From Branchiostoma floridae (taxonomy: Eukaryota; Chordata; Leptocardii; Amphioxiformes; Branchiostomatidae): 64,000 nucleotides of DNA. Below the pieces are notes generated by a model. That model was not told the DNA's origin. It ran no database searches and saw only the letters and a list, made by a program, of their open reading frames with translations. Position 1 is the first letter of the stretch; the number at the start of each line of letters is the position of its first letter. The translations under genes and the position numbers were made by a program. Below, piece by piece: positions 14,926 to 49,781 of the stretch. The stretch is from the NCBI RefSeq assembly GCF_000003815.2, contig NC_049994.1:15470409-15534408 (forward strand). The letters run 5' to 3'.

Positions 14926-17910
<2,985 letters not shown>

Positions 17911-20070: not shown

Positions 20071-23000
20071 ATGAGACGACGAGGTAATGATTGAACATTT
20101 TCATGCTACATGTATTTATCTCTGACAGATTCTCTTGAGCTGAGGTTCAGTTTTTTCCTCTTCTGTTGACACACGAGTTGCAAACAACTTATCTACAAGC
20201 AGGTGCATCCGTCGGACATGTTTTGTGGGTATTTTGTCGGCTTTTCTGTGTTTCGACCTTTATTCTTACAATATCCTCAACTCTTGCACTTTCTCTGTTC
20301 TACCTCCCTGAACAAGAAAAATCCTGGAAATCACACACAAGTCAAACCGATACTTCAACTAAGAAATTGGCGGGCAACTTGTAACATTGTTGGCTTTTAC
20401 TTATAATTGACATAATTCGATGTTCCAGTTAACAAAATTGTGATGCTCTTTTCCTTTGTCTTCGAAGGAAGACAACAAAGCCGGGCAAGAGGTCGTCAAG
20501 ACCGCCCAAGGAACCCGATTGTCCTTCTCTTCCTGATGTCTACAATCTTGTACTTCATATCAAAGTATTTTGCAGGAGATTTCTCTCCCAACAACAGCCC
20601 GGCTATAGAGGAAGCACCGCTCCCAGCACCAGCGAGCACCCCGGTGTCGCCAGTCCACCGCGACTATCAGACCTACCTGCTCCGCAAGCGGCGTGATCGT
20701 TCGGATGATCGGGAGAGAAACGGCAACCTCTCAGCGGCGGCAAGGCCACGCGACATCGAGCAGCTGACCTCTCCTACCAGCGACAAGGGCTTTTCAACTC
20801 ACAGCGGCAAAGTCAACGATGTAGGATCGCCAGGCATCGCTTGGGGGAAAAAGAAAAACATTTCAGACCTTGACGCCAAAAGCTTAAACAACGGAGACGA
20901 TGCTGTCCCTACACAACAAACCGAAATCGACAAACCATCTGATGCACCCCTCAGTATTTCTACAAATGTTGGTGACGAGAGACAACCCTTACCTCAAAGT
21001 AAAGACTCTCATGAATTGCAGGGCTCTGGAGTAGAAATCATTGATTCCAATGACAACCCTGTGGATTCTGATCCCTCACCAAAAAGCGAAGAATTATACC
21101 AACAAGCTGAGTACCCTACTTTTACCGACGACAAAGCGTACCTCTTTCTCGACGCCAAGCGACATCCTGGAAGCACTGAAGAAGAGTTCTACGACATAAA
21201 TCGTGAGAAGATCAATCCTACGTCCCTGCACACGTCAAAAAACGGGGTAATGGAAGCAGACGACGACGATATTTTGAGAGGTAAGACGCAGTCGACTGCA
21301 GAAGATGTAGAGTCAAATGGCGTCTTCACCAGAACCGGCACCTTCGATATCATCGACGAAGGTGACCAGATCCAGGACTCACATACCAAGACCGCACGAG
21401 CCAACCAGATTGGTTTAGGCGCACTGTTTTCTCAGAATAATCACCTTTATCATCAAGATAAAGACATTGCACAGAAAGCAAGGCCTAGTGCCGATGAAGG
21501 CGAACCACAATTAAAGAATCAAGAGAGCAAAGAAGAAGTGCCATACTCCAGAGGAAGTTTTGATACTCAAGAAATCAAGCATCTCCGTGCCTCAAAGGAA
21601 TCTACGAACTCTACCATTCACAGCCACACTTCAAGTGCCCAAACCAACCGTCGGCGTAGACGAGACATCGGCGATCAAGTTTACGAAGAAAGTTCAGGCG
21701 AAGACCTCGAAACTACCGAAATGCCGGTGCAAGATACAATCACAGACGCTGTTAGGGGTGGTAGAAGCACAATTGGACCGGACGTGGAAGAGGTAACACT
21801 AACACATCCGTTACGTGTCACAGGAGAAACCAATGCTACTGCAACACTCAACGGCAAAGAAGCAACTGTGACAATCACCGAAAACACGTCTACATCAGGT
21901 AAGGACAGATAGCGTGACTCGTCTTTCAGCTTCATCTTTACAAAATGTATATGGGCTGCACTGTAAGTAATTCATATAGGCTGTATATATATTCATATAT
22001 CTATATATATATTTATACATTTATATACATTTATATATATATATGTAGAGAGAGAGAGAGAGAAATAGATCTTGTTGTTATAGACCATACGCAAGTCACT
22101 GTAATTGTGTCAATACAGATTTCTCTGTTCTGTTCTTTACTAGGTAGCAATCACCAATGGTTACGGGTTTCTCAGAACTGGGCAGTCCAAGACAACCTGC
22201 AAGACTCAAGGCGGCCCGCCTGGAGGGCTCTAGACCTAGACCCGTACACCACTTGGCGCATTGAGCGGACTCTACCTTTGATCATTGACTTTGGAGCCTC
22301 ATACGAACTTAGTCGGATCCGTGTAACATACGAGGAAAATCAGCATGCCATCACAGGGTACAGACTTTACATGTCAGCCGGACCACATGCGCAAAGACAG
22401 CAAGTGAACTGGACTCAGGTCCTGACCACCCAAAGGCAAAACGTCAGCACAAGAGTAGAAACTATCGCTGGATTTGGGGGCACTGGCCGCTCTTGGAAGC
22501 TGGATTTTGTGCATGTTCTCAATGAACCAGAGTTGTGGTGTAACGCAACGTATATGGGCTTAACCTCTCGCGACAGAAGGAAAGACACAGTTTATGTGAC
22601 AAGTGTGCAATTTTTCGGTACAAAAGGTGAGTTTATTTTGCACGTAAGCAACGATAACATATAAGTCTACAATGCCAACTTTCGCATCGATGTAACAAGT
22701 CGAATCTGATAATTATGAAAGTTAATCCTACACCATTGCATTTTCATATTGTGTATCTTTTCTCTTCTGTCACAATGGGAAGTTGCGGGCGACGAAACAG
22801 CTACATCTTCTGGCCACTGGATAGCACACGCCGACATCAGTCCTGAAGCCCAAGAGTACACCGGCTCCGCTCACTATAGGAGGGGGATGCGGAATGGAGT
22901 TACAGATATACTGAGGGGAGGAAACACCATGTGGAAACCACTGGGAACACCTCGGTACCACAATAACTGGTTTGTCGTCCTGGACTATCATGTCAGTTAC

Positions 23001-26000
23001 ACCATGAAGAAGCTGCGGATTGTCAACTACGGCTGTGACTGGATCCATGACGTCAAGGCGTTCACTCTACAAGTCTCCATCGCGGGAAACCCTTACAGGT
23101 ATATGCGAATCAGTTTTGCATTATTCACTCCACTTCCCTGCGTAACTGCGGGAATTTTGGCCCAGAAGGTGCTGGGTTCGAATCCTCTCATGATACCGAT
23201 CCTGTATCCTTGGTAAAGGCATTTTGCAGGTCTTTCCTCACTCCACCCGGATATAAAAATGGATCGGGCTCCGCGTTCCGATATAGTGCCCTAAATACAA
23301 CATTTTTACTTAAATGCATTGTCCAACATTTAACCCTCTTTTCCAAACTTTTCAGACTTTTAGGACACGTCCTAGACCTAACATCACTCCCAGACTACGC
23401 TTAAACTTTGTGTTTACCCAGAAGCTGACATGCGCATATGCTCTTTAGGATATGCTCTTATGAAACCTACAACTTTTTGTATTTTGATATATTTCAGTCA
23501 TATGTTCCTGCATTTGATTTCCATTTTATGATTAGTAATGCCTTTTCATTTGACGTAAAAATAAGCTTTGTAAACCTAATTATTTCATCACTTGATGTTC
23601 TGATTGTACCTTCGCTATATAAAAAATTCCAGATGGACCCCCGTGCTGACCGTGACTGACGTGGCAGCGAACACCTCCCTCCCGCAGTACTTCGGCGGCT
23701 TCTCGGCGTCGGGCCGCTACTGGATGGTCACCGTAACGGCCACCTACTCGGGCTGGGAGCCGTGGATGAGAACGTTTCAGCTCTTTGGCATAAAAGGTAC
23801 GGTAAAAGTTTATCTGTAATTTTGATAAATCTAAAGCTAAAAGTTTGACGTTGTATGAATCCTATGGAAATGCCAATGATTCCCAGTGACATCACCTCCT
23901 ATTTTGATTTCAGACTCACCATATCTCTGTACCCCGATGTTGTTAACGATCACTGCCACTGGTGTGATAAATGGGCCTACCTGGGATCATATAAACGATG
24001 TGGTAGGAGACATGACTCCAGTTCCTAGCGTTATTGTTAGCAACAGCTTAAGAATATGTTAACGATTTCAACAAACAAAAATGTACCTTTTGATTGCCGT
24101 GGTATGATTCTGTGTTCCGTCTTAAGATGCTTTTCTTTTCTAGTATTCGATTATGTTTCTCTACCACTAGTCAAAAATACAATCTTAAGGCTGTGTTATA
24201 CAATATCAACTTGATGTATTTTGAAAGTCGTGTTATCGTTCTGTGTTCCGTGTAAGGATGATGATGAAATGCCAATGGGGACAGTTATCAATACTCAGTG
24301 GATTGATCATACCCGCATATATGACGTCATGTGGAACAACGGAAGCAGTGGCCAATACGTCATTGGAGACGTCGGAAACACGCGGCGGATTGACCTTTCA
24401 CCTGCTGGCTTTGGTGAGTCGTGCTGCAAGTTTACTGAGATTGAGCTAACTCCTCATTCACTCACTCACTCTTTCACTCACACTCACTCACTCACTCATT
24501 CTCTCACTCACTCACACTCACTCACTCACTCTCTCTCTTACTCACTCACTCTCACACACTCACTCATTCATTCATTCACTCAAAACATTCAATTTCTCAT
24601 CCACTCCTCACTCATTCATTCATTCATTCACTCACTCATTCGTTCATTCACTGATTCATCCACTCCTCGCTCACTCTAGTATTAGTTACATACATTATTG
24701 CGTCTTTATCGTATTTCGAAAAAACAATGGATACCAAAAACGTCATGAGTCCTTCATTAGGAACCCTATAGGAGCAATTCGAAAGAACTGTAAATGAATA
24801 CTGATGTCCATTTTTCTTCGGCAGATTGCCGGAGGGATGTCGTTCCTAACATCATGCTACCACTTAAGGTGGACATCTGCTGCGTTCCAGGTGGGTGATT
24901 AGGTGAACATAAACACGATATTAACCATATCATGCCCAAATAAAAACATATGTAAACCACGCACTTAAATCCAAGGAGGAAAGGGATTGTGAAATATAGC
25001 TAGAAGAAATTTTGATTACTACCAACACAGATGAGCTTCCGTGATATTGAGTGCCTGTCTATTGTCCGTATGTCTGTTCCAGTGTGTATAACTTCAGATG
25101 TCTTGATATTGATTTGTGATCTTTCAGGTCACATAGACTGGAATCCAGAGGTAAGTGTAGTTTCCTCTGTTGACTTTTTCGTCTTAATTAATCTCTTTCA
25201 AACACATACTGTCATCATTGAACATGTAAATACTATACACACGGTCTTCTAGGTCAAGACCATTATTAGATTGGCCCTTTCGTTGGAAGTCTTCAATTAC
25301 ACACCTATCTGGCATCTAAGTTTAATTATCCAACATAGTCAACGTTTCTTGTACTTAAGTTATGCAGACATTTTCTGCAACATCGTAACTGCTGGCCAAG
25401 ACGGTTCTATTAGCCTCTACTAGGTCGGTGAAAAATACCTACTAGTATGTTGTATGTATTTACAATGATTTTTCCACTGACCTGGCATCCTCTTACGCAG
25501 GGACATCCAACAGCGAAACCGCCTGCCTGGATGTACCCTGCTTTCTCAACTGTCACCCTTAGTTCCTGACCACCCTGCTTACAAATATGAATCAGCTTAC
25601 CCTTATATATGCAGGACCCCTTTCGAAAACTGAAAGGCCTATTCTCTTATTGGCTGACAGCTGGTTTGGGGGGGGGGGCGTCCACAGGAACTAAGAGTGA
25701 CGGTTGAGAAAGCAGTGTACATCCAGACAGGTGGTTTCGCCGTTGCATATCCCTGCCTAGGAGGATGCTGACCTGGTAGGGGCTAAAAGAACCGTCTTGG
25801 CCCGCAACTACGACATTGCCACCATAAAATCCTGTTGGAGATGAGAAAATACCTGAATTTTGTGTCGTTGACCTTCGGCTCAGGCCGAGCTGAGTGGACT
25901 GCAGTGTTCCAACACAGCCAGTTGCAGGGTGTGCGGAAGCATGACGGGAAATTCTTGCGGCTGTGACAAGGCATGCAGGTATGATATCTATTCCACCAAC

Positions 26001-28853
26001 AGGCTTTCCTTGGGAGTTTGAAAAAAGATAGAAGTCGACAAAAATACAGGCAATCCAGTAGAGTCCATCCATGAAAAGGGTATCACTGTCCCTAAGTACA
26101 CCACAAAAAGACGAAATTCAAGGTATTTTCCCTACATGGTCTGGTAGAGACTACCAAAACAAACCTTGATACACGAAATGAACATGAAAGTAAAAAGAAA
26201 GAAATACAAGGACAACTGTACAATGTGACACATTTCGGATCGATTTCTTTTGTTGGGTCTCACTGGATGAGACGGCCTTAGAATTACAGGCTATGTTTGT
26301 GCGTGTCGTCGAATTGATAACTCCACGGGTGGGGACGGACTAGTACTGGTCTGTGCCGACCTTTCTCGGCATTTACAATACACTGTGTCATTTTCCTTGA
26401 TATTTCTATCAGGTTGTAACGTACTCTAAGGCTAGGTGGGATAAAGGATTATCAAATCAATACATCAAACTTTGCAAGGTACAGCATTTCAAACATCCAT
26501 AACCGTTCTCTTTGAAGGATATTTAGAGACTGTTGCCATAACTACGCGTCCGCCTGTGGTGATGACGTAACAGATGATGGGGACATCCGGCCAGTGATAC
26601 AGCCGGACTCCTGCAAGGGAAGATGTAACACGGAGAACATTGTCAGGTACAGATTGCTGTTGTTACTAGTTAGAGGGCCTCTAAGTAACTTCAGTCAATC
26701 AAACCACCATCTATTACAACATCCATTGGATTGATTATCTCACATGTAAATAGTACTGATAACTGAACACTACTTCCTTCACTTTAAGCTTTTTACCAGT
26801 CCATAAAGAATACAGTAATCTCTTTCGACTTTCCAGCATGATTGTAATTCCACAGTACCACAATGACAGTGCTATGCTGCTTTCCTTTTTGCAAGGATAC
26901 ACGTTTTGCTGTAAGTCCGATCCTCAATAAACAAAATCTGATAGATGAACTACAATTTCCACATATCTCCACATTTAAGTTTTCCTTATTTTTTATTTTG
27001 TTTTGCTTTGTTCAGCAAAGTGACGTGCAGCTGCACAAGTTCCTGCAACTTGACGGAAACTTGCTGTGATGACTTTGAGGATGTCTGTCAGGGTGGAAAC
27101 GCCAACATCACTACATCTGATAGCAACCAGGTAAGGATGATTTTGTCTTCGAATTCGCGAATCTATTACAGTATTGCTATCAACTAACGAACTACGGGAA
27201 CGAAAAAATCAACTAGTTCAACGGTTTTGTTTCCTTTGACAGCCCCTGCAGTGCGTTGCACCCTGGGACTTCCGCTTCAACTTCTGGATGGTCGCGAGTT
27301 GTCCGCCCAGCTTTGCAGACGACGTCGTCCGAGGGATGTGCGAGACTTCCTACCAGAACGACGACATGTTTCTCCACGCCCCGGTCACGGACAACTCCAC
27401 CAACACCAACTACAGAAACGTGTTCTGTGCCCTATGTAATAACGCTAGGTACATGGTAGGGTGGAAGATGGTTGCCAAATGTGGCTACACTCCTTCAGAT
27501 CCACTGAAAACTATCCTACAAGATAAAAACGACATTTGTGATCATTATTTTAGACCCACTGTTGCCCCTGCGCGACTTTGCTTCCCTCCCCACACAACCC
27601 CGCCCCGTGCAAGTGTTCGCTGCGATGTAGCAAAATGTAGAAACATAACCGCTGTTTTCTACGCAAACGCCCGACCCTTTAGGAACTCTGTATGTGCGGA
27701 GTGCTATGCTGAAGAAGATGACCTTTTCGACACCTCTTGCAAAGCGGATGACACTACGTTCATAGGTTTTCTCGGCACAATCACTGTCCTCTTCGACTAT
27801 TCAGACATTTTGCATAGCAAGATGTCGTCCAATGAACTCGAAGTATTCGAACATACGGAGTCGTGTTCTATGGGGTTTATATACGATCCATTTCGAGATA
27901 CCTGTCGTAAGATCTCTTTTGTACCCCCTACTGAAGAAGTTCCCAAAGATTCAGGTGTAAAACAGGCGGGAGAATCCTTGGAGAATGATCATGATGACCA
28001 TCAAGCACCAACTCAGAGTCCCATTGATGAGTTACCAACTCAAAACTCATATTTCCCACAGCAAAGCGCTACATTTCTCGTCATCAACACTGTTTCTGGT
28101 GCTTCTGCCGTCATTTCTATCTCATATCTCCTATCCGGCCTTCGCCACTTTGCACGAGCCGAATCCGCTGTGAAGATCTGCCTCTTGACATCCCTTCTTC
28201 TGGCACAGATCAGCCAGCTGCTGGGTCAGGTCGTTCCTTCAGCAGCCTGCTGCACGGCCATGTTGGTGTGCACCCTCTGCTTCTGTCTGGCCGCTAGTCT
28301 GTCTCTCACTGCCACAATCCAACACCTGTCTGTCCTACAGCGAGGCGGCACCTGTAAAGCTGCTGCCCAGCTCTTAGTCATTGTGGTTATTCCGCTGGCA
28401 ATGTCAGGAGGGTACGTTGCGCTGGATGATTCAATCCACTTGGGGGCGCCTCGTCCATTGGCTAGTCCTACCTTCTGTTGGATTGACGACCCCGCAAAAA
28501 TGGCAATCACAATGGTCGTGCCCTTAGTGATCTGTACGTTTGTGGATCTCTACTACCTGCTCCGTATGTCCCTGACATGTGCTACCACCGATGGCGTGCA
28601 TGACTCCTTCTTGGCGCTGGGAGCGCTGCAGTTCGTCCCAATCACAGCTGCCATGACCACAGGCGTCATGACTGCCTACTTTGACTCAGAACTACTGCGC
28701 ACGGCTTTCTTATACATGGTGATCTCCTTGGGCGGGGTGGTTGGGTTCCTGTTCCTGGTATTTTCGATTGTTGGGGTTCGGAAGGACGATGCTAACGTAG
28801 TCCCTCCTTTGCCAAGTTCATTTGAAGCCTTGAGTGACCCATCTGCTCCTTAA
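20071..28853 (+). CDS. Receptor A: 2x F5/8C + MIB/HERC2-like + 2x SMB + 7TM (adhesion/Methuselah-like GPCR)
   Basis: Thirteen exons: 20071-20083, 20468-21898, 22144-22626, 22783-23098, 23633-23796, 23914-24002, 24257-24413, 24825-24890, 25128-25150, 25884-25978, 26518-26646, 27016-27130, 27243-28853. The frame holds throughout: 1,563 codons plus stop. Domains: Arg-rich start and hydrophobic segment (~22-42, signal peptide or anchor); Ser/Thr/Asp/Glu-rich stalk to ~481 with an Arg5 run at 399-403; F5/8C-like 482-642 and 643-802; MIB/HERC2-like ~815-880 (INGPTWD, then YDVMWNNGSSGQYVIG and IDL); SMB1 922-959 (CGCDKAC, DCCHNY); SMB2 978-1013 (SCKGRC, TCCDDF); Cys-rich region; 7TM ~1303-1537. No GPS/GAIN motif is visible. 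It is probably a plasma-membrane receptor coupling extracellular binding to G proteins; the ligand is unknown. The large last exon holds all seven helices. The intron at 23,099-23,632 is absent from B and C. Exact acceptors of exons 4 and 12 rest on paralogue alignment. Confidence 0.85.
23135..23290 (+). mobile_element. tRNA-derived SINE inside the gene-A-specific intron
   Basis: GGTTCGAATCC at 23,175-23,185 is a perfect RNA polymerase III B box. It is followed by 'ccttggtaaaggcatttt' and 'cctcactccacccgg', which resemble the conserved central part of tRNA-derived SINEs widespread in marine invertebrates. It lies wholly within the intron 23,099-23,632. Confidence 0.7.
24455..24675 (+). repeat. 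(CTCA)n/(ATTC)n tetranucleotide array, gene A intron 7
   Basis: About 220 bp of 'ctcactcactcattc' repeats start some 40 bp after the exon 7 donor. The same repeat occupies the same intron of gene C (45,680-45,838, as gagt/gaat on the plus strand), so it predates the A/C duplication. Confidence 0.9.
25365..25825. mobile_element. Large foldback element in gene A intron 9
   Basis: The left arm (25,365-25,570) and right arm (25,680-25,825) are inverted copies: 'ggccaagacggttct' pairs with 'agaaccgtcttggcc', and 'gcctggatgtaccctgcttt' with its near-complement around 25,710-25,730. The left arm carries a ~50-bp insertion (about 25,429-25,480). The spacer is ~110 bp and includes a poly-G run. It sits about 60 bp before exon 10 and is not found in gene C's corresponding intron, so it inserted after the duplication. 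No coding capacity. Confidence 0.8.
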
Positions 28854-29332
28854 AAGGGCGACAAAGTTCTCTATACTGACAAGTATCGAAGCCAGTTTCA
28901 TCGCTTCTATTTTAAAAGAATCTGTAACTTGAATATGTCTAAATGTTCAGGGAATATCTTAAAGGTATTGGTTATTATATATACTGCATATACAGGTGAG
29001 ACCGTAATAGCATTAAGTGCGCAAAATTATATCGCTATACAGATATGCATATGTTACGCGATTTTAGTCAGGCTAACTCTATATGTATGTATTGAGCAAC
29101 TTTTGTGGTTGTTGAACTCGGGCGTTTGTGCTCAAGGAACCTGGTCTGAGGTGATCTCTCAACTTTGCCTTGTGTCGTGACAGGCCGGCAACATCAACTA
29201 ATTCGTAAAGCTGCTTATTTTGATGCATTGTGCTGCATCTTCTAATGCTTAAACTTGTAACAGTATCGTCACGTAAATATTAACAGCGAAGCTTGTGATG
29301 TTGATCATAGACGTAAATGAATTTACATCTTC

Positions 29333-30590: not shown

Positions 30591-30602
30591 ATGCCACCAT
30601 GA
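30591..30602 (+). promoter_or_regulatory. Four-codon upstream frame overlapping gene B's start
   Basis: ATG CCA CCA TGA: the stop codon overlaps the main ATG (ATGA overlap). Genes A and C lack it. If the leader begins near 30,550, this upstream AUG would be met first and could lower, or by re-initiation adjust, translation. Confidence 0.5.
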
Positions 30603-33600
30603 GACAGCGAGGTAAAGTTGGTACATTTCTGTAGAACACATCTTCATTTAGAAAACGTCACCCATGGTTCTGGCTCATGGTACACTGCCTTGTTACTCAT
30701 TTGTCAGTGATGATGCTCATTCAAATATTTTTAATGACCGTCTGTTGTCCTTTTGTTTAAAGCTCGGCGGCAAAGTATAGGAGGTCGCCAGCGGCGTCCA
30801 TTCAGCCTAGTCATTCTTCTCGTAAGTGCCTGGGCCTTATATCTCATCCCGAAGTACCTTGCAGGAGATCTCTTTCTAGATGGAAGCAAGGGAACAGAAG
30901 GAATACCAACCAAGGCAAGATCAACGAGCTCTCCGGAGTCGACAGTCAGCCGTCGGGGCATGGGCGATCTTCTCCGCAGGCGAGGCAATGGCCAGAAGGA
31001 TGGGAAGGGCATTAGCAACTCCCCGGTGAAGAGGCCACACACCGAGCAACTCGCCTTTATCACTGTCGGCCCTAGCACACCGAGTCACAACGTCAGGTTC
31101 AAGAAGGTAATGGTAAAGAAAACGCCAAATGTGACCCTGCTCAAGATCAGAAAATCGCTCAATAAGAATGGCACACAAAAGGGAGCAGACGCCATAGACC
31201 ACTACTTCACATTCTCAGTCTCAGATAAGGATGCCCTTGAGGACAAGCTGCGACCGACTGCCGATGAAGCCACATTTACCAGTGACGGCACCTTCCAGAC
31301 CATCAGCAACGGTGATCAGGAGAGGAGCCAGCCTGTAGGGACTAAGACGCAAGAAATCGGCCAGACTCATTCAGACAGGTTTTTTTCTCATTACAACCAC
31401 ACAGAACATGGCGTCAGGTCTCAACCAGAGACAATGTTCGACGCTGTTGAAGAGAAAACGCCCAAAATGAACCACCGTGGTAAAGATGAGGTGCCAGTAC
31501 CATACAGCATCGAAGAATTAGACACTCGAACAATTCACGAATCGACGGGAAACGCCACCAATCCCAGGCCCGCCCCTAGAGCCCAATACAAGCCTCGACA
31601 AACACGAGAAGCTAGCGACCCACGCCTTGAAGAGAGTTCAAAGCCCAAGCCTGCTACGAGAGCCCAATCCAAGCCTCGGCAAACACGAAAAGCTAGCGAT
31701 CCACGATTTGAAGAGAGTTCAAAGCCCAAGCCTGCTACGAGAGCCCAATCCAAGCCTCGACAAACACGAAAAGCTAGCGATCCACGATTTGAAGAGAGTT
31801 CAAAGCCCAAGCCTGCTACGAGAGCCCAATCCAAGCCTCGGCAAACACGAAAAGCTAGCGATCCACGATTTGAAGAGAGTTCAAAGCCCAAGCCTGCTAC
31901 GAGAGCCCAATCCAAGCCTCGACAAACACGAAAAGCTAGCGACCCACGCCTTGAAGAGAGTTCAAAGCCCAAGCCTGCTACGAGAGCCCAATCCAAGCCT
32001 CGACAAACACGAAAAGCTAGCGATCCACGATTTGAAGAGAGTTCAAAGCCCAAGCCTGCTACGAAAGCCCAATCAAAGCCTCGGCAAACACGAGAAACTA
32101 GCGACCCACGCTTTGAAGAGAGTTCGGGTGAGCAACCTGTTGCTACACAAGTGCCAGAAGAGTTTTCAACAGCAAACACTCTCTGGAGCCGTGGAAGTGC
32201 CGCTGGACCAAGCATGGAGGCAGTAACACAGATGATGCAGACCACAAGACAAGGTACAGTCAGTAACCTAGAAACAACTGCAGTCAGTACAGCCAAAGTG
32301 ACAACTGCAACAATTGTCAAAGGACAACAACAAGGGGGGTTAAATGCAATGGAAAACGTCCCTAAGTCAGGTAACTACGAGTAGACATGTCTGTCAGAAC
32401 GTAACCCCTCTGTCTTTCTGTTCTAAGTCCTACTTCTTCCGCGGGGTCTCTTTTTCTAAGTCCTTGCTGTAGGTCAAGTGCAATTTACATGCACCAGGGG
32501 ATCGAAGGCCTATCTATGTAACATAGGAGACAAGCACCTGTGTGTCCCGTTTGTTGCTTTCTCTGCTTTCTCTGCTTAGCACTCAGCCTCCTGCTGTAGT
32601 GCCTTGCATAAATGTTTGACCCAAGGGCTACAGAAATGGAGATAGGCGCCATCCCTAAATATCTGTTACAGATGTACGGGCAACTTAGACAAAATCACAC
32701 AAAAATGTCCATGTTAGTATTCCGCAGAATGCGAAGAGATCCGGTTCATTGGTAACATGTTTACAAATGGTCAGTGTGCTTTGCTATGGACACAAGTTAT
32801 CCGAGTCCGATGACATTTCAATGTCTTATGGTGTGCATGTTTTATTTTTTATGCCATCCAGGCAGTATTCACGGTCGGTTACATATTTCTCAGTACTGGA
32901 CAATACAAGACAACCTGCAACACTCACTGTCCACCTGGAATGCTCTATATGACCTAGACCCATACACCACTTGGCGCATTGAGCGGACTCTACCTTTGAT
33001 CATTGACTTTGGAGCTTCATACGAACTTAGTCAGATTCGTATAACATACGAGGAAAATCAGCATGCCATCACAGGGTACAGACTTTACATGTCAGCCGGA
33101 CCACATGTTCAAAGACAGCAAGTGAACTGGACTCACGTCCTGTCCACCAAGCGGCAAAACATCAGCACAGACGGAGTGGAAACCATCGCTGGATTTGGGG
33201 GCACTGGTCGCTCTTGGAAGCTGGATTTTGTACATGTTCTCAATGAGCGACAGTTGTGGTGTAACGCAACGTACATGTACGAAACCTCGGGGGACAGAAT
33301 TAAAAACACGGTTTATGTGACAAGGGTGGAATTTTTCGGTGCAAAAGGTGAGTCACTCAAGGCACATGTAACAATAACTTGGATATCTATGATAGTAGCA
33401 GGCTTTTGTTAGATCAGCAGCTATGGATTTACATCTGATGATTCAATTCAATTCGCAATGCGATTCACCCCTTAGCTAATTGTGCGTTGTTACCTTCGCC
33501 ACGAATGTTATGCTTTCGGTAATGTTCGTGGCTAAGTGTGCATTTGTGTGTGTAATTGCAAGTGAACAAAAATCAAATACATGAAATGATTGAGGTCTAA

Positions 33601-36600: not shown

Positions 36601-38824
36601 CGTCTTCCTCTTGTGGTATCGAATGGCTTGGTGACTATGCTGCTTGACACGAGATTGAGACATATGCAAACATCAGATTTCATCTTCTGTCGCTTAAAGG
36701 ATATTTGGAGACTGTTGCCATAACTACGAGTCCGCCTGTGGTGATGATGTAACAGATGATGAAGATATCCGGCCAGTGATACAGCCGGACTCCTGCAGGG
36801 GACGATGTAACATGGAGAACATCGTCAGGTACAGATTGCTGTTTATTAGCCTGGGTAACAGAATTCGTCCAAGGCATGTAAATCCTAAGCCTTGTAACGG
36901 CTTATCTTGTACATTTGGTTGTCTCTCTAAAAATTCTGTTATGTTATTTTATCTGCCAGTGTTGTGACGTGCAACTGCATAAGTTCATGCAACACGACGG
37001 GAACTTGCTGCGATGACTTTGAAGCTGTCTGTCAGGGACACAAGGGCGGTTGGACAGGTGACAGTAACGTCAACATCACTGCCACAGAAAGCAACCAGGT
37101 GAGCCATGAATCAATACATGTCGCCTTCGCTTTGCAGTCGTCTTGTTGTTACACACGAACGAACGAACAAACCAACAAACATGTTATCGCTCTGTTGACA
37201 GCCCCTGCAGTGCGTTGCACCCTGGGACTTCCGCTCCCACTTCTGGATGGTCGCGAGTTGTCCGCCCAGCTTTGCAGACGACATCGTCCGAGGCATGTGC
37301 GAGATATCCTTCCAGAACTTCCAGAAATACGACAGGTTTCTCTACGCCCCAATCACGGACAACTCCACCAACACCAACTACAGAAACGTGTTCTGTGCCC
37401 TATGTAATAACGCTAGGTACATGGTAGGGTGGGAAGTGGTTGCCAAGTGTCGTTACACTCCTCCAACTGCAATAAAAGGTGCACTGCAGGATAGAGGCAG
37501 CATTTGCAATCATTATTTCAGGCCAAGTGTTGCCCCCGCGCGACTTTGCTTCCCTCCCCACACAACCCCGCCTCGTGCAAATGTTCGCTGCGATGTGGCA
37601 AAGTGTCGGAACATAACCGCTGTTTTCTACGCAAACACCCGACCCTTTAGAAACTCTGCTTGTGCGGAGTGCTATGCTGATGAGGACGACCTTTCTGATA
37701 CATCTTGTAAATCAGATGACACGGACAAGGTGGGGTTCTTTGGGATCATTACTGTGCTAGTTGACTATTCGGCCATTTTCCAAAGCAAAATGTCATCTAG
37801 CGAACTACAGGTCAGCGACCATATTGAGTCGTGTTCTATAGGGTTTATATACGACCCATTTCGAGATACCTGTCGTAAGATCTCTTTTGTGACCCCTAAT
37901 GAAGAAGTCCCCAAAGATGCAGGTGTAACACAGGCGGGAGAATCCTTGGAGAATGATTATGATGACCATCAAGCACCAACTCAGAGTCCCATTGATGAGT
38001 TACCAACTCAAAACTCATATTTCCCACAGCAAAGCACTACATTTCTCGTCATCAACACAGTTTCTGGTGCTTCTGCCGTCATTTCTATCTTATATCTCCT
38101 ATCCGGCCTTCGCCGCTTTGCGCGCGCCGAATCCGCTGTGAAGATCTGCCTCTTGACATCCCTTCTTCTGGCACAGATCAGCCAGCTGCTGGGTCAGGTC
38201 GTTCCTTCAGCAGCCTGCTGCACGGCCATGTTGGTGTGCACCCTCTGCTTCTGTCTGGCCACTAGTCTGTCTCTCACTGCCACAATCCAACACCTGTCTG
38301 TCCTACAGCGAGGCGGCACCTGTAAAGCTGCTGCCCATCTCTTAGTCATTGTGGTTATTCCGCTGGCAATGTCAGGAGGTTACATTGCACTGGATGACTC
38401 AACCCGCATGGGGGCGCCACGTCCATTGGCTAGTCCTCCCTTCTGTTGGATTGACGACCCCGCAAAAATGGCCATCACAATGGTCGTGCCCTTAGTGATC
38501 TGTACGTTAGTTGACCTCTACTATCTGCTCCGTATGTCCATGACATGTGCTACCACCGATGGCGTGCAGTACTCCTCCCTAGCGCTAGGGGCGCTGGTGT
38601 TTGTCCCATTCACAGCTGCCATGACCACAGGCGTCATGACTGCCTACTTTGACTCAGAACTACTGCGCACGGCTTTCTTATACATGGTGATCTCCTTGGG
38701 CGGGGTGGTTGGGTTCCTGCTCCTGGTATTTTCGATTGTTGGGTTTCGGAAGGACGATGCTGATGTAGTTGTCCCTTCTTTGCCAAATTCAGTTGAAGCC
38801 TCGAGTGACCCGTCTGTTCCCTAA
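30599..38824 (+). CDS. Receptor B: paralogue with a 7-unit stalk repeat
   Basis: Twelve exons: 30599-30611, 30763-32370, 32862-33347, 33910-34398, 34613-34704, 35059-35224, 35611-35676, 35815-35837, 36290-36384, 36700-36828, 36960-37098, 37202-38824; 1,642 codons plus stop. Same order as A: Arg-rich start and hydrophobic segment (SLVILLVSAWALYLIPKYLA), stalk to ~540 with seven 27-residue repeats (270-458), F5/8C-like domains 541-702 and 703-865, MIB/HERC2-like segment (IVVRGPTFND, YDVMWKKSGGTYVIG), two SMB domains, Cys-rich region, 7TM ~1381-1620 in the last exon. The second F5/8C domain is one uninterrupted exon, unlike A. The exon 6 donor (G|GTTCGT) is weak. The stalk is unlike A at the nucleotide level while parts of the 7TM exon are identical. 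Role as for A: a predicted cell-surface receptor with unknown ligand. Confidence 0.85.
31557..32123 (+). repeat. 81-bp coding minisatellite, 7 units, in gene B exon 2
   Basis: Exact 81-bp period with unit starts at 31,557 (diverged), 31,638, 31,719, 31,800, 31,881, 31,962 and 32,043. Each encodes a 27-residue unit whose core is KPRQTRKASDPRFEES. The middle units are nearly identical. Genes A and C carry one unrepeated equivalent ending in EESSG, so the expansion is specific to B and recent. The unit is very basic and Pro/Ser-rich, so it is probably disordered. Confidence 0.97.
33715..33840 (+). repeat. Repeat in gene B intron 3, second copy at 55,380
   Basis: 'gaaaatgaaacgcccca', 'agattgattcgatgatc' and 'ttggtgtgatttcgga' recur in the same order and orientation at 55,390-55,505. 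It is either a shared dispersed element or a piece copied from the receptor locus into the foldback structure. Confidence 0.75.
35266..35484. mobile_element. MITE in gene B intron 6
   Basis: The ~31-bp terminal inverted repeats start TAAGGGCGCGGTCACATAGG at the left; the right end is the reverse complement with one change. The interior also pairs around 'cgatcgtgcgacgatcg'. It begins about 40 bp after exon 6. A and C lack it at this position. Confidence 0.9.
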
Positions 38825-41052: not shown

Positions 41053-41596
41053 ATTATATAGAGGTACGTAACATCACAAATACCTGTACATGCGGTATAT
41101 ATTATGTGATATCCAATGTCTTTATGCTATTCGCTGAACATTTAGACGTATTCATATTACAGATTCTTTTATCGTTGAAGAGGTCCATTAGTCACGTATG
41201 AATACGGTTACTCCAATTTTTTTTCAAACAATGACTGTTTTTAAGGTAAATTTAAGTACATACCTCCAAATTTTCTTCAAGCAATGACTGTTTTTAAAGG
41301 TAAGGTACATACCTCCTGAAATTTTCGACGACTGACAGTCCGTCTTCATCACGGAGACTGACCTAGTCTCGATCTCGCGAGAGAACACTCGTGTATGGTA
41401 CCTTACCTTTAAAAACAGGTATGTACCTTACCTTTAAAACCAGTCCTTGCTTGAAGAAAATTTGGATCAACCACATATTATTTTGAAATAAAAGAGATGC
41501 AATTGCCCAGTATAGAGAAGTAAAAAATACACGTTGATTGATATAGATCACGTGAGAGAATATGCTCTGCTCACTGCTGAGAAATTTGGCGCCACT

Positions 41597-44500
41597 TTAT
41601 GAAGTAGACGGGTTACTCAGGGCTTCAACTGAACTTGGCAAAGAAGGGACAGCTACGTTAGCATCGTCCTTACGATCCCAAACAATCGAAAATACCAGGA
41701 ACAGGAACCCAACCACCCCGTCCAAGGAGATCACCATGTATAAGAAAGCCGTGCGCAGTAGTTCTGAGCCAAAATACGCAGTCATGACGCCTGTGGTCAT
41801 GGCAGCTGTGAATGGGACGAACAGCAGCGCCCCCAGCGCCAATAAGGAGTACTGCACACCATCGGTGGTAGCGCATGTCATGGACATACGGAGCAGGTAG
41901 TAGAGGTCCACTAATGCACAGATCACTAAGGGCACGACCATTGTGATTGCCATTTTTGCGGGGTCGTCAATCCAACAGAAGGGAGGACTAGCCAATGGAC
42001 GAGGCGCCCCCAAGTGGATTGAATCATCCAGTGCAACGTAACCTCCTGACATTGCCAGCGGAATAAGCACAATGACTAAGAGATGGGCAGCAGCTTTACA
42101 GGTGCCGCCACGCTGTAGGACAGACAGGTGTTGGATTGTGGCAGTGAGAGACAGACTAGCGGCCAGACAGAAGCAGAGGGTGCAAACCAACATGGCCGTG
42201 CAGCAGGCTGCTGAAGGAACGACCTGACCCAGCAGCTGGCTGATCTGTGCCAGAAGAAGGGATGTCAGGAAGCAGATCTTCACAGCGGATTCGGCGCTTG
42301 CAGAGTGGCGAAGGCCGGAAAGGAGATATAAGATAGAAATGACGGAAGAGGCACCAGAAACTGTGTTGATGACGAGGAATGTAGCGTTTTGCTGTGGGAA
42401 ATATGAGTTTTGAGTTGGTAACTCATCAATGGGACTCTGAGTTGGTGCTTGATGGTCATCATGGTCATTCTCCAATGATTGTCCTGCCTGTGTTACACCT
42501 GCATCTTTGGGAACTTCTTCAGTAGGGGGAACAAAAGATATCTTACGACAGTTATCTCGAAATGGGTCGTATATAAACCCCAAGGAACACGACTCCGTAT
42601 ATTCGAATACTTCGAGTTCGGTGGACGACATCTTGCTATGCAAAATGTCTGAATAGTCGAAGAGGACAGTGATTGTACCGAGAAAACCTATAAATATAGA
42701 TTCATCCGCTTTGCAAGAGGGCTGGTTAAGGTCGGCCTTGTCAGCATAGCACTCCGCACAAGCAGAGTTTCTGAAGGGTCGGGCTTTTGCGTAGAAAACA
42801 GCGGTTATGTTTCTACATTTTGCCACATCGCAGCGAACACTTGCACGAGGTGGTTTTGTGGGGGGAGGGAAGCAAAGTCGCACAGGGGCAACAGTGGGTC
42901 TGAAATAATGACTACAAATTTCGCCTGTATCTTGTAGGAAAGTTTTCAGATTTGAAGGTTTTTTGCCACATTTGGCAACCATCTTCCACCCTACCATGTA
43001 CCTAGCGTTATTACACAGAGCACAGAACACGTTTCTGTAGTTGGTGTTGGTGGAGTTGTCCGTGACCGGGGCGTGGAGAAACATGTCGTCGTTCTGGTAC
43101 GAAGTCTCGCACATCCCTCGGACGACGTCGTCTGCAAAGCTGGGAGGACAACTCGCGACCATCCAGAAGTGGGAGCGGAAGTCCCAGGGTGCAACGCACT
43201 GCAGGGGCTGTCAAAGGAAAGAAAACCGTTGAACTAGTTGGTTTATTCGTTCCTTGGTTCGTTCGTTTGTTGAAAGCAATGCTGCATTACAGCTGCTAAA
43301 CTCAAAACGAAACTAGTACGATGAAATTTGCAAACAAATATGTAATGTTTACCTTCACATGTTTCGTAGTCTAACACTGAATACTGTTATGTCTATTCTT
43401 ACTCCAACAAATGTATATCTAGGAACCTGAACCCCTCCCGCTCTGTGCATAGCCATTTGCTGCATTATGTGACCGAACAAGTAGGTATGTAACCGAACAC
43501 AACAGGTGTGTCTGCTACTTTACCGGTAACCATGGTGATGGCTGTCTGGCCCGGGTCGTTGACCAGGTAAACATAATCATCCTTACCTGGTTGTCATCCG
43601 ACGCAGTGATGTTGGTGTTTCCACCCTGACAGGCATCTTCGAAATCATCACAGCAAGGATCCGTCAAGTTGCAGGAACTTGTGCAACTGCACGTCACTTT
43701 ACTGAACAAAGCAAAACAAAACAGAATATCGACATAAACATAAGAAAAATGTGAATATGATGTCATGAGAAATTGCTAGGTCCTCTCATGGTCTATCAGA
43801 TTTTATTCACATTTGTGTATTGAGGATGAAAGCATGTTGGTAGTCATGCCATTGAATTGCTATATATTGATCTACAATGTTGTAAAGAGATGATAACGGA
43901 TTACTTCATTGGCTGGCTTTAAGTTTACAGTGAATGAGGTAGCGCTCAGCTTGTTTTACTATGGTAACCGCACTTTCGTACATGTGGGATAACCAATAAC
44001 ATGGTGTAGTAATAGATAGTGGTTCAACTGACTAAGGTAACATAGAGGCCCTTTAGCTAAACAACAGCAGGTTGTACCTGACAATGTTCTCCGTGTTACA
44101 TCTTCCCTTGCAGGAGTCCGGCTGTATTACTGGCCGGATGTCGTCATCATCTGTTACGTCATCACCACAGGCGGACTCGTGGTTATGGCAACAGTCTCCA
44201 AACGCCCTTCAAAGAGAACGGTTTAGGATGTTTGAAATGCAATATTTGGCTGGCAAACTATGATTTGATGTATCGATTTGAGAACGCTTTATCCCGTCTT
44301 AGAATGTGTTACATCTATTCAATAGAGTATAGATAAACAACCTGATAGAAATATGAAGCAAAATGGTACAGTGTATTGTAATCGCTGAGAAAGATCGGGA
44401 TAGACCAGTACTATAGCTCGTCAACACCCGTCGAGGTTTCATCAATTCGATGATCTGCACTAAATTTGCTACAGTCATTGCCCGTAATCTTAAATGCCGT

Positions 44501-47500
44501 TTTATCCAGTGAAAGCCAATAAAAGAAATTGATCCGAAATGTGTCGCGTCGCCCAAATTCGGCTAACGTTGAATTTCGTCTTTTTGCCGGTGCACAAGAA
44601 ATGATAACCTTTTTGGGAAGGACTCTACTGGTCAATTATTCACCGTATTGTTGCAGAATCCTACTGTCCATAACCCATAAGGAAGGCCCATTGGTGTAAT
44701 AGCTATCATACCTGCATGCCTTGTCACAGCCGCAAGAATTTCCCGTCATGCTTCCGCACACCCTGCAGCTGGCGGTGTTGGAACACTGCAGTCCACTCAG
44801 CTCGGGCTGAGCAACAGAAGATCAGCAACATGAAATTCAGGTAGATAGGTGTTATGGGAAAGTGAAAGTGACCTTGATTGTGTTTAGTTCAGCAAAGAGC
44901 CCATCTAATAGTGGTCGTGACCTAGAAGACGCTTTGTACAGGGTTAATGCATTTGTGTATTTGAAAGAGATGAATAAAGGGTAAAAATTCAACAGAAGAA
45001 ACTGTACTTACCTCTGGATTCCAGTCTATGTGATCTGAAACATTACAAATCAATATTTAAAAATCTGTGGCTAATAAACACTGGGACAGACACACGGAAA
45101 CATAGATAGGCACTTGTCATGAAAGCTCATCTGTGTTGGTAGTAATCAAACAATGCTAAACTTTCTTCCAGCTATATTTCACGATGCTTTCCCCCTTGGA
45201 TTAAAGTACATGTACATATGTTTTAACTGGAGCATTACATCATATCGTGTTTATGTCCACTTAAACACCCACCTGGAACGCAACAAATGTCCGCCCTTAG
45301 CGGTAGCATGAAGTCAGGGACGACATCCCTCCGGCAACCTGCCGAAGTAAGATGGAAGACATCAGGATTCATTTGCAGTTCTTTCACGGTGTGTTCTTAG
45401 TATTCATTGTTTCACGTTTCATTCCTTCAGCTTACATATGCGATAAAGAATAAATTATGTGTGTACGCAAGATTCAAGTTACGGACAAAAGTTATTGTTT
45501 GCTTTGAATTGATATTTTCCTTTTAATTCCGTGCTTTGCGTCGATAGCAAAGTGTTGACATATAAAATCGCTTAACAAAACATCCCCACAATGACCAAAG
45601 AGGGAAAGAACCCACGTGGACTACCCCGTAAGAGATGGTCTGACAACATCAGGGAAGATTTTCATCTCCTGCACATTGCCAAGTCAGTGAGTGATTGAGT
45701 GAGTGAGTGCTTGAGTGAGTGAGTGAGGAGTGTATGAGAAATTGAATGTTTTGAGTGAATGAATGAGTGAGTGACTGAATAAGTGAATGACTGAAAAAGT
45801 GAGTGAATGAATGAATGAATGAGTGAGCGAGTGAGAAGTTACTCAATCTCAGTAAACTTGCAGCACGACTCACCAAAGCCAGCAGGTGAAAGGTCAATCC
45901 GCCGCGTGTTTCCGACGTCTCCAATGACGTATTGACCACTGCTTCCGTTGCTCCACATGACGTCATATATGCGGGTGTGAGAAAGCGACTGCGTCATGAT
46001 AACTGTCCCCATTGTCATTTCATCATCATCCTTACATGGAACACAGAATCATAACACGACTTACAAAAATACATTTTTGTTTGCTGAAATCAAATAACTC
46101 ATCGAATATTAGAAAAGAAAAGTACACAGAATCATAACACGACAATCGAAAGGTACATTTTTGCTTGTTGAAATCGTATAACACATCCTGAAGCTGTTAA
46201 GGTGGGGTCACACATGCGTATAATATATATTCAAGTCCGTTTGAGGTGCGTATAACGCTCTTAGTCTCTACCAGGCTCCACAGGTCGCGGTAAAAATAAA
46301 ACAAATTGGACAAATATAGAGACATAACATGCCAGATGAGTTAGCTGACCGAGAAGTATGGTTAGCGACCCAGCTAACTCGTCTGACATGTTACCTGTTA
46401 ACGTTTGTCCAATTTCTATCATTTTTCCAACGACCTGTAGGGCCTGGTGGAGGCTATTACTCCCATGCGCGCCTCATACGGACTTAAATATATACGCAGG
46501 TGTGACCCCACCTTTACTAACAATAACACTAGGAACTGGAAACATGTATCTTACCACATTGTTCGTAGGCCCATATATAACACCTTTGTCCAACAAAAAA
46601 AACAGCGGACAGAGGTATGGTGAGTCTGAAATCAAAACAGGAGGCGATGTCACGGAAAACCTCATCCATAGATGAGATTATGGAAGCTCAACAAATCAAA
46701 TCAAGTTTATTGCACAACGATTGCATCAGGTACAATGTATGGCAAGTAAAACGCAGCACTAATAACTGCAAAATATCTACACTATTGTACTAATTTAACA
46801 TCATTGCACAATACAAATATACCGGCAAATTACCGTACCTTTGATGCCAAAGAACTGAATTAGTCTCATCCACGGCTCCCAGCCCGAGTAGGTGGCCGTT
46901 ACGGTGACCATCCAGTAGCGGCCGGACGCCGAGAACCCGCCGAAGTACTGCGGGAGGGAGGTGTTCGCTGCCACGTCAGTCACGGTCAGCACGGGGGTCC
47001 AGTCGTAAGGGTTTCCCGTGATGGAGACTTGAAGAGTGAACGTCTTGACGTCATGGGTCCAGTCACAGCCGTAGTTGACAATTCGCAGCTTCTTCATGGT
47101 GTAACTGGTATGATAGTCCAGGATGACAAACCAGTTATTGTGGTACCGAGGTGTTCCCAGTGGTTTCCACGCTGTTCTCACTCCTATCTCTACGTTTTCA
47201 ACTCCATTCCGCATCCCTCTACTATAGTGAGCAGAGCCGGTGTACTCTTGAACCACAGGACCGATGTCGGCGTGTGCTATCCAGTGGCCAGAAGATGCAA
47301 CCGCTTCGTTGCCTGAAACTTTTCATCGTGGTAGAAGAGAAAAGATACATATCGTCATGAAAATACAATGGCATAGGAATAGCTTTGAATCATATTGCGA
47401 TCATTGTAAGATTCGACTCGTCTCATCGATACGAAAGTTTGTATTCTAGACTTAGATGTACAAAATAAACTCACCTTTTGAACCGAAAAATTCCACCCTT

Positions 47501-49781
47501 GTCACATAAACATTGTCTTTAATTCTGTCGAACAAGGTTTTGTACATATACGTTGCGTTACACCACAACTCTCGCTCATTGAGAACATGTAAAAAATCCA
47601 GCTTCCAAGAGCGCCCAGTGCCCCCAAATCCAGCGATGATTTCTACTCTTGCGCTGACGTTTTGCCTTTGGGCGGTCAGGACATGAGTCCCAGTCACCTG
47701 CTGTCTTTGCGCATGTGGTCCGGCTGACATGTAAAGTCTGTACCCTGTGATTGCATGCTGATTTTCCTCGTATGTTACACGGATCTGACTAAGTTCGTAT
47801 GAGGCTCCAAAGTCAACGATCAAAGGTAGAGTCCGTTCAATGCGCCAAGTGGTAGACGGGTCCAGGTCCAGAGCCTTCCAGGCGGACCGTGAGCCTTGCA
47901 GGTTGTCTTGGACTGCCCAGTACTGAGAAACCCGTAACCATTGGTGATCGCTACCTAACAAAGTATAGAACAGAGAAATCTGTATTGACACAACAAAGGT
48001 ACAGCGACTTTCCTTAAATCTATAACAACTACTTACAGCAAACAGACATATACAGTAACTGACTTTTTGTTGAGCTTTGGCTTTTGGCATTGGCACAATA
48101 TATATATATGTATATTCACATATCTATCAATAGCTATCTATCTATATTTATGTATCTATGTATGTATCTATCTAAATTGTATCTATGCTTCTGAAGCTAA
48201 AAGACAGTTCTACCTGTCTTTACCTGATGTAGACGTGTTTTTGGTGATCGTCGAAGTTGCTTCGTCGTCGATGAGTGTTGCAGTAGCATTGGTTTCTCCT
48301 GTGACACGTAACGGATGTGTTAGTGTTACCTCTTCCACGTCCGGTCCAGCTGTACTCCTTCGTCCCCAAGCAGCGTCTGCAGTTGTATCTTGTACCGGTA
48401 CTACGGTAGTTTTGAGGTCGTCGCCTGAACTTTCTTCGTCGTCAACTTCTCGTGTTCGCCGACGCTTGGCCGATTTGGCACTTGTCTCACGATTTATGTC
48501 GTAGTGCTCTTCTTCAGTCCCGTCAGGTTGTGGATTGTCGTCGAGAAAGAGGTACGCTTCGTCGCCGGTGAAAGTAGGGTACTCAGCTTGTTGGTATAAC
48601 CCTTCACTTTTTGGTGAGGGATCAGAATCCACAGGTTTGTCAAGGGAATCAATGATTTCTACTCCAGAGTCCTGCAATTCATAAGACCCTTTGCCTTGAG
48701 GTAAGGGTTGTCCCTTGTCACCAACATTTGAAGAAATATTGAACGGTGCATCAATTGGTTTGTCGATTTGGGTTTGATGTGAAAGGTTATCATCGTCTCC
48801 CTTGTTTGGCGACCTTTTGGCGTCAAGCTGGATCACATCTGAAATGCTTTTCCATTCTCCCCAAGCGATGTCTGACGATCCAACCTCGTTGACTCTGCCG
48901 CTGTGAGTTGAAAAGCCCTTGTCGCTGCTAGGAGAGGTCAGCTGCTCGATGTCGCGTCGCCTTGCCGCCGCTGAGAGGTTGCCGTTGCTCTCCCGATCAT
49001 CCGAACGATCACGCCGCTTGCGGAGCAGGTAGGTCTGATAGTCGCGGTGGACTGGCGACACCGGGGTGCTCTCTGGTGCTGTGAGCGGAGCTACTTCTGT
49101 GGCCAAACTCTCGTTAGGGGAGAAATCTCCTGCAAAGTACTTTGAGATGAAGTACAAGGCTGTAGACATCAGGAAGAGAAGGACAATCGGGTTCCGCGTA
49201 CGGTCTTGGCGACCCCTCGCCCGTTGTTGTCGTCCTTCGAAGACAAAGGAAAAGAGCATCACAATTTTGTTAACTGGAGCATCGAATTATGTCAATGATA
49301 AATTAGAGCCAACAATGTTACAAGTTGCTCGCCAATGTCTAAGTAGAAGTATCGGTTTGACTTGTTGTGTGGGATTTTCAGCATTTCTCTTGTACAGGGA
49401 GGTGGAACGGAGAAAGTGCAACAGTTAAGAGAAAGGTCGAAAAGCAGAAAAGCCGACAAAATACCCACAAAACAAGTCTGACTAACACACCAGCTTGAAG
49501 ATACATTGTTTGCCACTCAAGTGTCAACGGAAGAGGGAAAATGAACCTCTAAAGTCTAAAAAAAGTCTCTCAGAGATGAATACATGTACGAGAGGTGTTT
49601 CTCGGTCACACCCAACAATAATAAGCACATTCAACTAAACATTTCGAGGCACAGCTTCGTCGTATGAAGGCTTTCATCAATATCCTCCAAATTTCAAATC
49701 TTAACAGCCCTTTCTTTCTAGGCGACGTCTTTTTGAAAATCAGTAGCATAGAAATGTTCAATCTTTACCTCGTCGTCTCAT
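41597..49781 (-). CDS. Receptor C: inverted duplicate of A with a shortened stalk
   Basis: Twelve minus-strand exons: 49781-49769, 49234-48224, 47954-47475, 47318-46839, 46625-46555, 46030-45874, 45338-45273, 45034-45012, 44806-44712, 44206-44078, 43701-43587, 43207-41597; 1,416 codons plus stop. From exon 3 onward most exon lengths equal those of A, but exon 2 is 140 codons shorter and A's split exon 4/5 (316+164) is one exon of 480 nt. Domains: Arg-rich start, hydrophobic segment (IVLLFLMSTALYFISKYFAG), stalk with KRRRTR near its end, F5/8C-like 342-501 and 502-661, MIB/HERC2-like (YDVMWSNGSSGQYVIG), SMB1 and SMB2 (SCKGRC, CCDDF), 7TM in the last exon from residue 881. The exon 4 acceptor could instead lie 6 bases later. 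It looks intact and functional, with the same predicted role as A. Confidence 0.85.
45680..45838 (-). repeat. (GAGT)n/(GAAT)n tetranucleotide array, gene C intron 6
   Basis: Counterpart of the gene A array at 24,455-24,675, in the same intron and the same position relative to the upstream exon, but about 60 bp shorter. Confidence 0.9.
46198..46516. mobile_element. Near-palindromic MITE in gene C intron 5
   Basis: The termini TTAAGGTGGGGTCACACATG and its near-complement (to 46,516) are the ends of an almost fully self-complementary ~319-bp element. The centre, 'catgccagatgagttagctg', pairs with 'cagctaactcgtctgacatg'. Gene A's homologous intron is about 270 bp shorter and lacks it, so it inserted after the A/C duplication. 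It ends about 40 bp before exon 5 in transcript order. Confidence 0.92.
46690..46760 (-). mobile_element. Retroelement-tail remnant in gene C intron 4
   Basis: 'caaatcaaatcaagtttatt' followed by 'gcacaacgattgcatcaggt' looks like the reversed A-rich 3' end of a non-LTR element. Weak evidence. Confidence 0.3.

Follow-up and report, generated by a model that had tools for sequence, protein, structure and literature searches.

Four amphioxus genes for predicted adhesion-type seven-helix receptors with a MIB/HERC2-like segment in the ectodomain

Can a domain tied to ubiquitin ligases lie in the outer part of a seven-helix receptor? The question is raised by a 64,000-nucleotide stretch of the genome of the amphioxus Branchiostoma floridae (C16:15470409-15534408; hereafter the window), in which an initial annotation had described three receptor genes with discoidin, MIB/HERC2 and somatomedin-B (SMB) domains in front of seven hydrophobic helices. 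We rebuilt the three genes, designated A, B and C, and searched the whole assembly (513,431,437 bases, 431 contigs), where a fourth gene, D, was found. The best explanation of their sequences, and in our judgment a probable one, is that the four genes encode related surface receptors of the adhesion type, with seven helices and, in the predicted ectodomain, a MIB/HERC2-like segment. The observation made in the initial annotation was confirmed; its interpretation is partly supported and appears mostly right.

Gene models and family size

The models were obtained by comparing stop-to-stop open reading frames (ORFs) within the window, scoring splice sites and then joining the exons. As predicted from ORFs, comparison between paralogues and splice sites, the transcripts of A (20071-28853, forward strand), B (30599..38824, forward) and C (41597..49781, reverse) comprise 13, 12 and 12 exons and splice to 1563, 1642 and 1416 amino acids (aa) with no internal stop. 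The complete models initially described, with a common exon order and 12-13 exons read without a stop, were thereby recovered independently. Since splice sites had been selected as GT and AG, these dinucleotides themselves are no proof of the models; independent backing comes from the frames staying open and from the intron phases, which match in A, B and C down to a 23-nt Cys-linker exon and a 13-nt first exon. Weak splice sites include the donor of B exon 6 (TTCG/gttcgt) and the exon 3-to-4 acceptors. The first exon, ATGAGACGACGAG followed by gt, contains the start codon, and positions 20071 and 49781, the end points originally given for the locus, are its start codons in A and C, respectively; it is also present in B and D. 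The conservation of this short exon in all four genes led us to reject an alternative start at an ATG within exon 2.

The domain order is the same in A to D: a hydrophobic N-terminus, a long Cys-free stalk, two discoidin domains, the MIB/HERC2-like segment, a Cys linker, two SMB domains, a juxtamembrane domain with 14 cysteines and seven hydrophobic helices. In gene A, exon 1 (20071..20083) encodes MRRR, its ATG.../gtaa being conserved in the four genes, and exon 2 (20468..21898) encodes a hydrophobic stretch (aa 22-40) and the stalk, which is presumed to be disordered. Discoidin 1 occupies exon 3 (22144..22626), a phase 1-1 exon matching Pfam family PF22633, and discoidin 2 is divided between exons 4 (22783..23098) and 5 (23633..23796). 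The MIB/HERC2-like segment starts in exon 6 (23914..24002, with VINGPTW) and continues in exon 7 (24257..24413, with GTV...YDVMWNNG...YVIG...IDL). Exons 8-9 (24825-24890, 25128-25150) supply the Cys linker, exons 10-11 (25884-25978, 26518-26646) SMB 1 and the start of SMB 2, both matching PF01033, and exon 12 (27016..27130) the remainder of SMB 2 (PF01033 at aa 976-1015). Exon 13 (27243..28853) contains the juxtamembrane domain, the helices and the stop codon. The exons of B lie at 30599-30611, 30763-32370, 32862-33347, 33910-34398, 34613-34704, 35059-35224, 35611-35676, 35815-35837, 36290-36384, 36700-36828, 36960-37098 and 37202-38824, with the MIB/HERC2-like segment in exons 5-6 (34613..35224). 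Those of C lie on the reverse strand at 49781-49769, 49234-48224, 47954-47475, 47318-46839, 46625-46555, 46030-45874, 45338-45273, 45034-45012, 44806-44712, 44206-44078, 43701-43587 and 43207-41600, followed by a TAA stop at 41599-41597; here too the segment falls in exons 5-6 (45874..46625), its first part being shortened.

A Pfam scan of the three proteins, with rows reported at E<=1, bore out both domain pairs of the initial annotation. The discoidin-type family PF22633 passed its cut-off of 27.8 bits in A, B and C (32.4, 36.6 and 30.2 bits; E 7e-7 to 7e-9), while PF00754, at 25.9, 29.9 and 25.3 bits against a cut-off of 28.2, did so in B only. The SMB family PF01033 scored 39.5, 42.1 and 36.1 bits (cut-off 23.1) with two stretches in each protein (E 8e-9 to 1.1e-10). 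Eight cysteines per SMB domain were counted by eye in the translations, a pattern that we take to be the hallmark of this domain. Discoidin exons are common in the genome: five of the 150 matches scored, out of 210 candidates, belong to A-D.

The intron at 23099-23632, within discoidin 2, exists in A alone and is missing from B, C and D. It carries a dispersed short repeat at intron positions of about 41-170, for which at least 41 matches (itself and 40 partial ones) were found with 40 of 340 candidates scored; the repeat includes what is presumably a tRNA-like box. This intron appears to be a recent gain linked to the repeat. The stalk exon of B contains an in-frame 81-bp (27-aa) tandem repeat at 31578-32125, in 6.8 copies with 95% matches.

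The initial annotation counted three genes, which is correct for the window but too few for the genome. The last exon of A gave 37 genomic matches: three fell in A-C, two covered a single exon at C16:12.79 Mb, one half each, and the other 32 lay elsewhere, some of them in one gene. The exon at 12.79 Mb belongs to gene D (C16:12.78-12.79 Mb; locus L039), 2.7 Mb from A-C, whose domain order is identical from discoidin 1 to the last exon; within 10 kb it has both discoidins, two MIB-like exons, the Cys linker, SMB 1, SMB 2 and the last exon. Directly upstream lies a counterpart of the 13-nt exon 1, together with an exon 2 of equal phase that has a hydrophobic stretch. A genome search with the MIB-like segment of D returned five rows, two from D and one each from A, B and C. 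Since B was recovered only at E 0.18, more diverged copies of the segment could escape such a search. The family thus comprises at least four genes.

From discoidin 1 to the end, protein identity is 80.1% between A and B, 86.9% between A and C, 78.7% between B and C, and 61.1-62.1% to D. Over the same interval the ratio of nonsynonymous to synonymous divergence (dN/dS), calculated with the stalk excluded and with no significance test, is 0.49 for A and C, 0.41 for A and B and for B and C, and 0.31, 0.29 and 0.30 for A, B and C against D. Domain by domain it ranges from 0.16 to 0.84 over the six pairs, three cells being undefined. With exons conserved between paralogues and dN/dS at 0.29-0.49, it is implausible that chance produced the models. 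These data also bear on the idea that the ectodomain exons and the seven-transmembrane (7TM) exon come from different genes, or that the copies are decaying. The transcripts are predicted from genomic sequence alone, the insertion in discoidin 2 of A must be spliced out and some splice sites are weak, all of which would fit such an artefact. Nevertheless, exon order and phases agree across A-C and also in D, which is 61-62% identical to them, the juxtamembrane domain and the helices share one exon with no internal stops, and dN/dS is below 1 wherever computable. Moreover, one related locus (L014) has SMB-SMB, juxtamembrane domain and helices in a single ORF that begins with a signal-like stretch, and another (L022) joins SMB to the juxtamembrane domain and the beginning of a 7TM part. 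An artefact of this kind therefore seems very improbable to us.

The MIB/HERC2-like segment

The assignment of exons 6-7 of A and 5-6 of B and C to the MIB/HERC2 domain fared unevenly. At the level of profiles, homology is supported and exceeds chance. Aligned by hhalign with the MIB/HERC2 domains of the same genome, the profile of the four segments gave a probability of 92.9% over 56 columns (pairwise E 3.8e-7), and its score of 35.6 exceeded all 600 column shuffles, 300 on each side, whose maxima were 18.3 and 21.1. When members were aligned singly, their own scores were reached by 0, 2, 0 and 0 of 100 shuffles for A, B, C and D, respectively; these alignments begin near residue 16-17 of the segment side and at position 1-4 of the profile, those of A, C and D extending to profile position 59 and that of B only to 46. 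Searched against 177,635 distinct PDB sequences, the segment profile found MIB1 as the sole match up to E 10 (E 0.88), with both of its MIB/HERC2 domains aligned. MIB_HERC2 (PF06701) is the top Pfam family of the A segment (E 0.0021), and a hand-made consensus matches it with an E-value of 4.8e-5.

A further link is provided by an intron. In A, the phase-0 intron between exons 6 and 7 separates V832 from D833, residues which hhalign, blind to introns, aligns to Q and D. The HERC2-like gene of this genome has a phase-0 intron at the aligned site (WGDQ/gta...cag/DGPPPGEGRV). In the MIB2-like gene the intron lies four bases further on, in phase 1, and in the HECTD1-like gene it lies elsewhere. 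By a rough estimate of our own, made with no tool, the probability that an intron placed by chance on some 198 sites coincides exactly with any of the three is 1-2%. We take locus L005 to be HERC2 and loci L004/L008 (C14) to be MIB2; MIB1 (L002/L003) and HECTD1 (L006/L007) were identified by eye from the PDB alignments.

A number of results weigh against this assignment and would suit a segment of other descent, namely a small all-beta module of Tudor/SH3-like or lineage-specific type that resembles MIB/HERC2 by chance near VRGP and YDVxW-G-YVIG. The curated Pfam cut-off for MIB_HERC2, 33.5 bits, was missed everywhere: full-length A scored 12.6 bits, its segment 18.4 and the hand-made consensus 23.6. 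The family was unreported at E<=1 in full B and C, and only two of the four segments match PF06701, those of B and D showing no match; in Pfam the D segment matches Tudor-knot (E 0.03) and the B segment nothing. The genome scan with PF06701 yielded eight rows, all at ubiquitin-ligase-like loci, and none from A-D at E<=0.001. As single sequences, A, B, C and D aligned by hhalign with low probabilities of 65, 2, 18 and 4%, and in the PDB match neither stretch of MIB1 passes alone (i-Evalues 84 and 260). The hallmark DWxWxxQD[DG]G is lost in A-D, where GPT alone is kept (GPTW in A); three of the five own-genome MIB/HERC2 rows cover this region, and all three have the motif. A structure model of isolated exon 7 has a mean pLDDT (predicted local distance difference test) of 70.2 and four strands (8-16, 19-26, 31-39 and 42-47); Foldseek returned no match for it at E<=0.001, and the 50 rows inspected out of 525 included no MIB/HERC2 chain, but as the model omits the first strand it carries no weight in either direction. 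An NCBIfam search of the segment gave no relevant match.

What speaks against an unrelated all-beta module is the profile score, higher than in every shuffle, together with the MIB1 match, unique among the PDB sequences, and the intron found at the same site, and in the same phase, as in the HERC2-like gene. We therefore rate that explanation as improbable and favor descent from the MIB/HERC2 domain. With the Pfam cut-off unreached, single members weak and the motif lost, the segment is called MIB/HERC2-like here and is not treated as a member of MIB_HERC2. Its likeness to the domains of MIB1, MIB2, HERC2 and HECTD1 lies in the 56-column profile alignment, the HERC2 intron position and phase, and an all-strand model of the second half. 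Unlike them, it sits in a predicted extracellular region, lacks DWxWxxQDGG and stays below the Pfam cut-off; no ubiquitin-ligase domain appears among the Pfam matches of A-C.

The seven-helix part and its relatives

The initial annotation placed seven hydrophobic helices in the last exon, and hydropathy agrees: merging overlapping windows by eye leaves seven hydrophobic segments after the juxtamembrane domain of each of A-C. Direct matches to the expected family failed to appear, as 7tm_2 was found at E<=1 neither in A-C nor in the last exon of D. The absence of a GPS/GAIN match at E<=1 in A-C likewise counts against the reading as adhesion-type seven-helix receptors, as does one more hydrophobic stretch, weaker than the seven, that A, B and C have within their juxtamembrane domain (A 1199-1217). 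Profile comparison nonetheless related the helices to recognizable receptors. A 7TM profile of A-D and three further loci (L014, L015 and L017) aligned with that of five other loci at 94.9%, with a score of 59.7 as compared to at most 19.6 in 80 shuffles preserving the hydrophobic pattern. Related loci in the genome match 7tm_2, and the five-locus profile had 24 PDB matches at E<=0.001, comprising 23 adhesion G protein-coupled receptors (GPCRs) and one corticotropin-releasing factor receptor. Homology of the seven-helix part to class B (7tm_2-matching) relatives is supported by these comparisons. When the PDB was searched with the 7TM profile built on the A-D group itself, one meaningless match (E 0.58) appeared, and a structure model of the last exon of A, made with B and C, had a mean pLDDT of 30.4 and was not used.

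The juxtamembrane domain (YRNxFCAxCNN) is common to many loci (L014-L038), and its 14 cysteines are invariant in all ten sequences aligned. No Pfam family is common to more than one of the ten members, and the PDB search with its profile disclosed no relative, the one match (E 0.81) being meaningless.

Could the helices merely anchor an adhesion or decoy molecule that has lost signaling? The missing 7tm_2 matches in A, B, C and the last exon of D are in keeping with this, as are the replacement of the tryptophan in transmembrane helix (TM) 6 and of N-x-S-x-G in TM7, both kept in five relatives, and a C-terminal tail of only about 25 residues. On the other hand, the order of the helices is kept, A-D retain the CW of extracellular loop 2, as does L017 but neither L014 nor L015, and dN/dS of the 7TM part is 0.31-0.44 across the six pairs, which indicates that the bundle is constrained. 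Loss of signaling is thus unlikely in our view, though less so than the alternatives discussed above, and the reading of A-D as receptors is retained.

Receptors of related design have been reported. SMB, discoidin and kringle are among the domains of the 37 Adhesion GPCR genes of B. floridae described in 2008 (Nordstrom, PMC2246102); SMB also precedes the helices of Mth/Mthl receptors in B. floridae, N. vectensis and S. kowalevskii (PMC4768249) and occurs in NvX and PARF1 (PMC3261222). The statement in the initial annotation that SMB-bearing adhesion-type GPCRs exist in invertebrate deuterostomes accordingly holds for amphioxus (PMC2246102) and S. kowalevskii (PMC4768249). With the published amphioxus receptors A-D have SMB and seven helices in common, and discoidin is also on the published list; HERC2, however, is not mentioned in that paper's main text. 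With Mth/Mthl and NvX/PARF1 they share a class B-like 7TM part with SMB in front, and their relatives in this genome, which have the same juxtamembrane domain, match 7tm_2. Methuselah_N (PF06652), confined to arthropod members of the family according to PMC4768249, had no Pfam match in A-C or in members with the juxtamembrane domain. Compared by domains, A-D differ from Mth and NvX in their added discoidins and MIB/HERC2-like segment and in a divergent 7TM part. By domain content, they seem to stand near the SMB-bearing, Methuselah/NvX-like adhesion-type GPCRs, a kind already described in amphioxus.

The claim that no such combination was known must be narrowed. Since Adhesion GPCRs with SMB and with discoidin were reported from amphioxus in 2008 (PMC2246102), what looks new is confined to the MIB/HERC2-like module of the predicted ectodomain, which was seen in A-D only, in a single genome search. 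In the literature searched, which left out most subscription journals, nothing was found on a MIB/HERC2 domain lying in the ectodomain of a GPCR.

Origin, divergence and possible function

The MIB/HERC2-like module and both discoidins are flanked by phase-1 introns in A-D, the sites in D having been sought at those phases. Phase-1 introns on both sides are typical of modules that extracellular proteins have acquired by exon shuffling. Loci L014 (C4) and L015 (C1) have SMB-SMB, and neither discoidin nor MIB-like sequence was seen in the ORFs read (the signal-like stretch of L015 lies in a separate, unspliced ORF). Most simply, then, the A-D lineage would have gained the discoidins and the MIB/HERC2-like segment on the N-terminal side, as modules on phase-1 exons. 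The segment itself was perhaps derived from a HERC2-type domain. The Mib/Herc2 domain is listed among opisthokont- or metazoan-specific domains (PMC2770060).

An inverted duplication has A on one arm (18307-28871) and C on the other (41579-51814), and its similarity extends beyond the genes; the arms align in 12 pieces, 73-95% identical, and a 13th row is a local palindrome. Synonymous divergence (dS) is uneven within the last exon. Between A (27243-28853) and D (L039) it drops to 0.17-0.19 in two 60-codon windows at residues 1328 to 1417 (TM2, TM3) and is at least 0.96 or saturated in 10 of 18 windows; between A and B (37202-38824) it ranges from 0.02 to 2.5 inside this one exon. Such a mosaic is likely due to ectopic gene conversion, acting also across 2.7 Mb. 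A bolder scenario can be drawn from these observations. In it, a HERC2-type module, of a kind otherwise known from intracellular ubiquitin ligases, would have moved as a phase-1 exon cassette into the outer part of an adhesion-type GPCR of a chordate and would there recognize peptides, as a barrel outside the cell, with gene conversion keeping the 7TM part uniform while the barrel diverges; we regard the odds of this scenario as even.

A possible mode of action was put together from the domain anatomy. R-x-x-R sites occur in the stalk (at 399 in A, 263 in C, and 445 and in the repeats in B), and RYPR can be read in the translation of D. With the ectodomain outside the cell, a convertase might trim the N-terminus at these basic sites, and the discoidins might hold a glycan, lipid or matrix surface. 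Inside cells, MIB1 uses its MZM region, a ZZ finger between two MIB/HERC2 domains, to bind the N-boxes of Jagged1 and Delta (PMC11887331); the peptide binding described there is that of the region as a whole. By analogy with its action on these ligand tails, the MIB/HERC2-like barrel could bind a short extracellular peptide, and the Cys-rich domains could relay engagement to the helices, which would signal atypically. Taken as a whole, this chain from extracellular topology and convertase trimming through matrix and peptide binding to atypical signaling is tentative, and we would sooner doubt it than rely on it. If the segment does fold as MIB/HERC2, a module associated with ubiquitin ligases and with the tails of Notch ligands would have crossed the membrane into a receptor, and the retained intron would trace its route. 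The four paralogues would be suitable material for separating the ligand-binding part from the signaling part.

Two further features of the window may be recorded. An ORF at 16662-16946 is, judging by its translation, a candidate for a ribosomal protein L23-like sequence. Tandem arrays of 136-bp units (54299-55379) and of 142-bp units (57274-57935) are related to each other on opposite strands.

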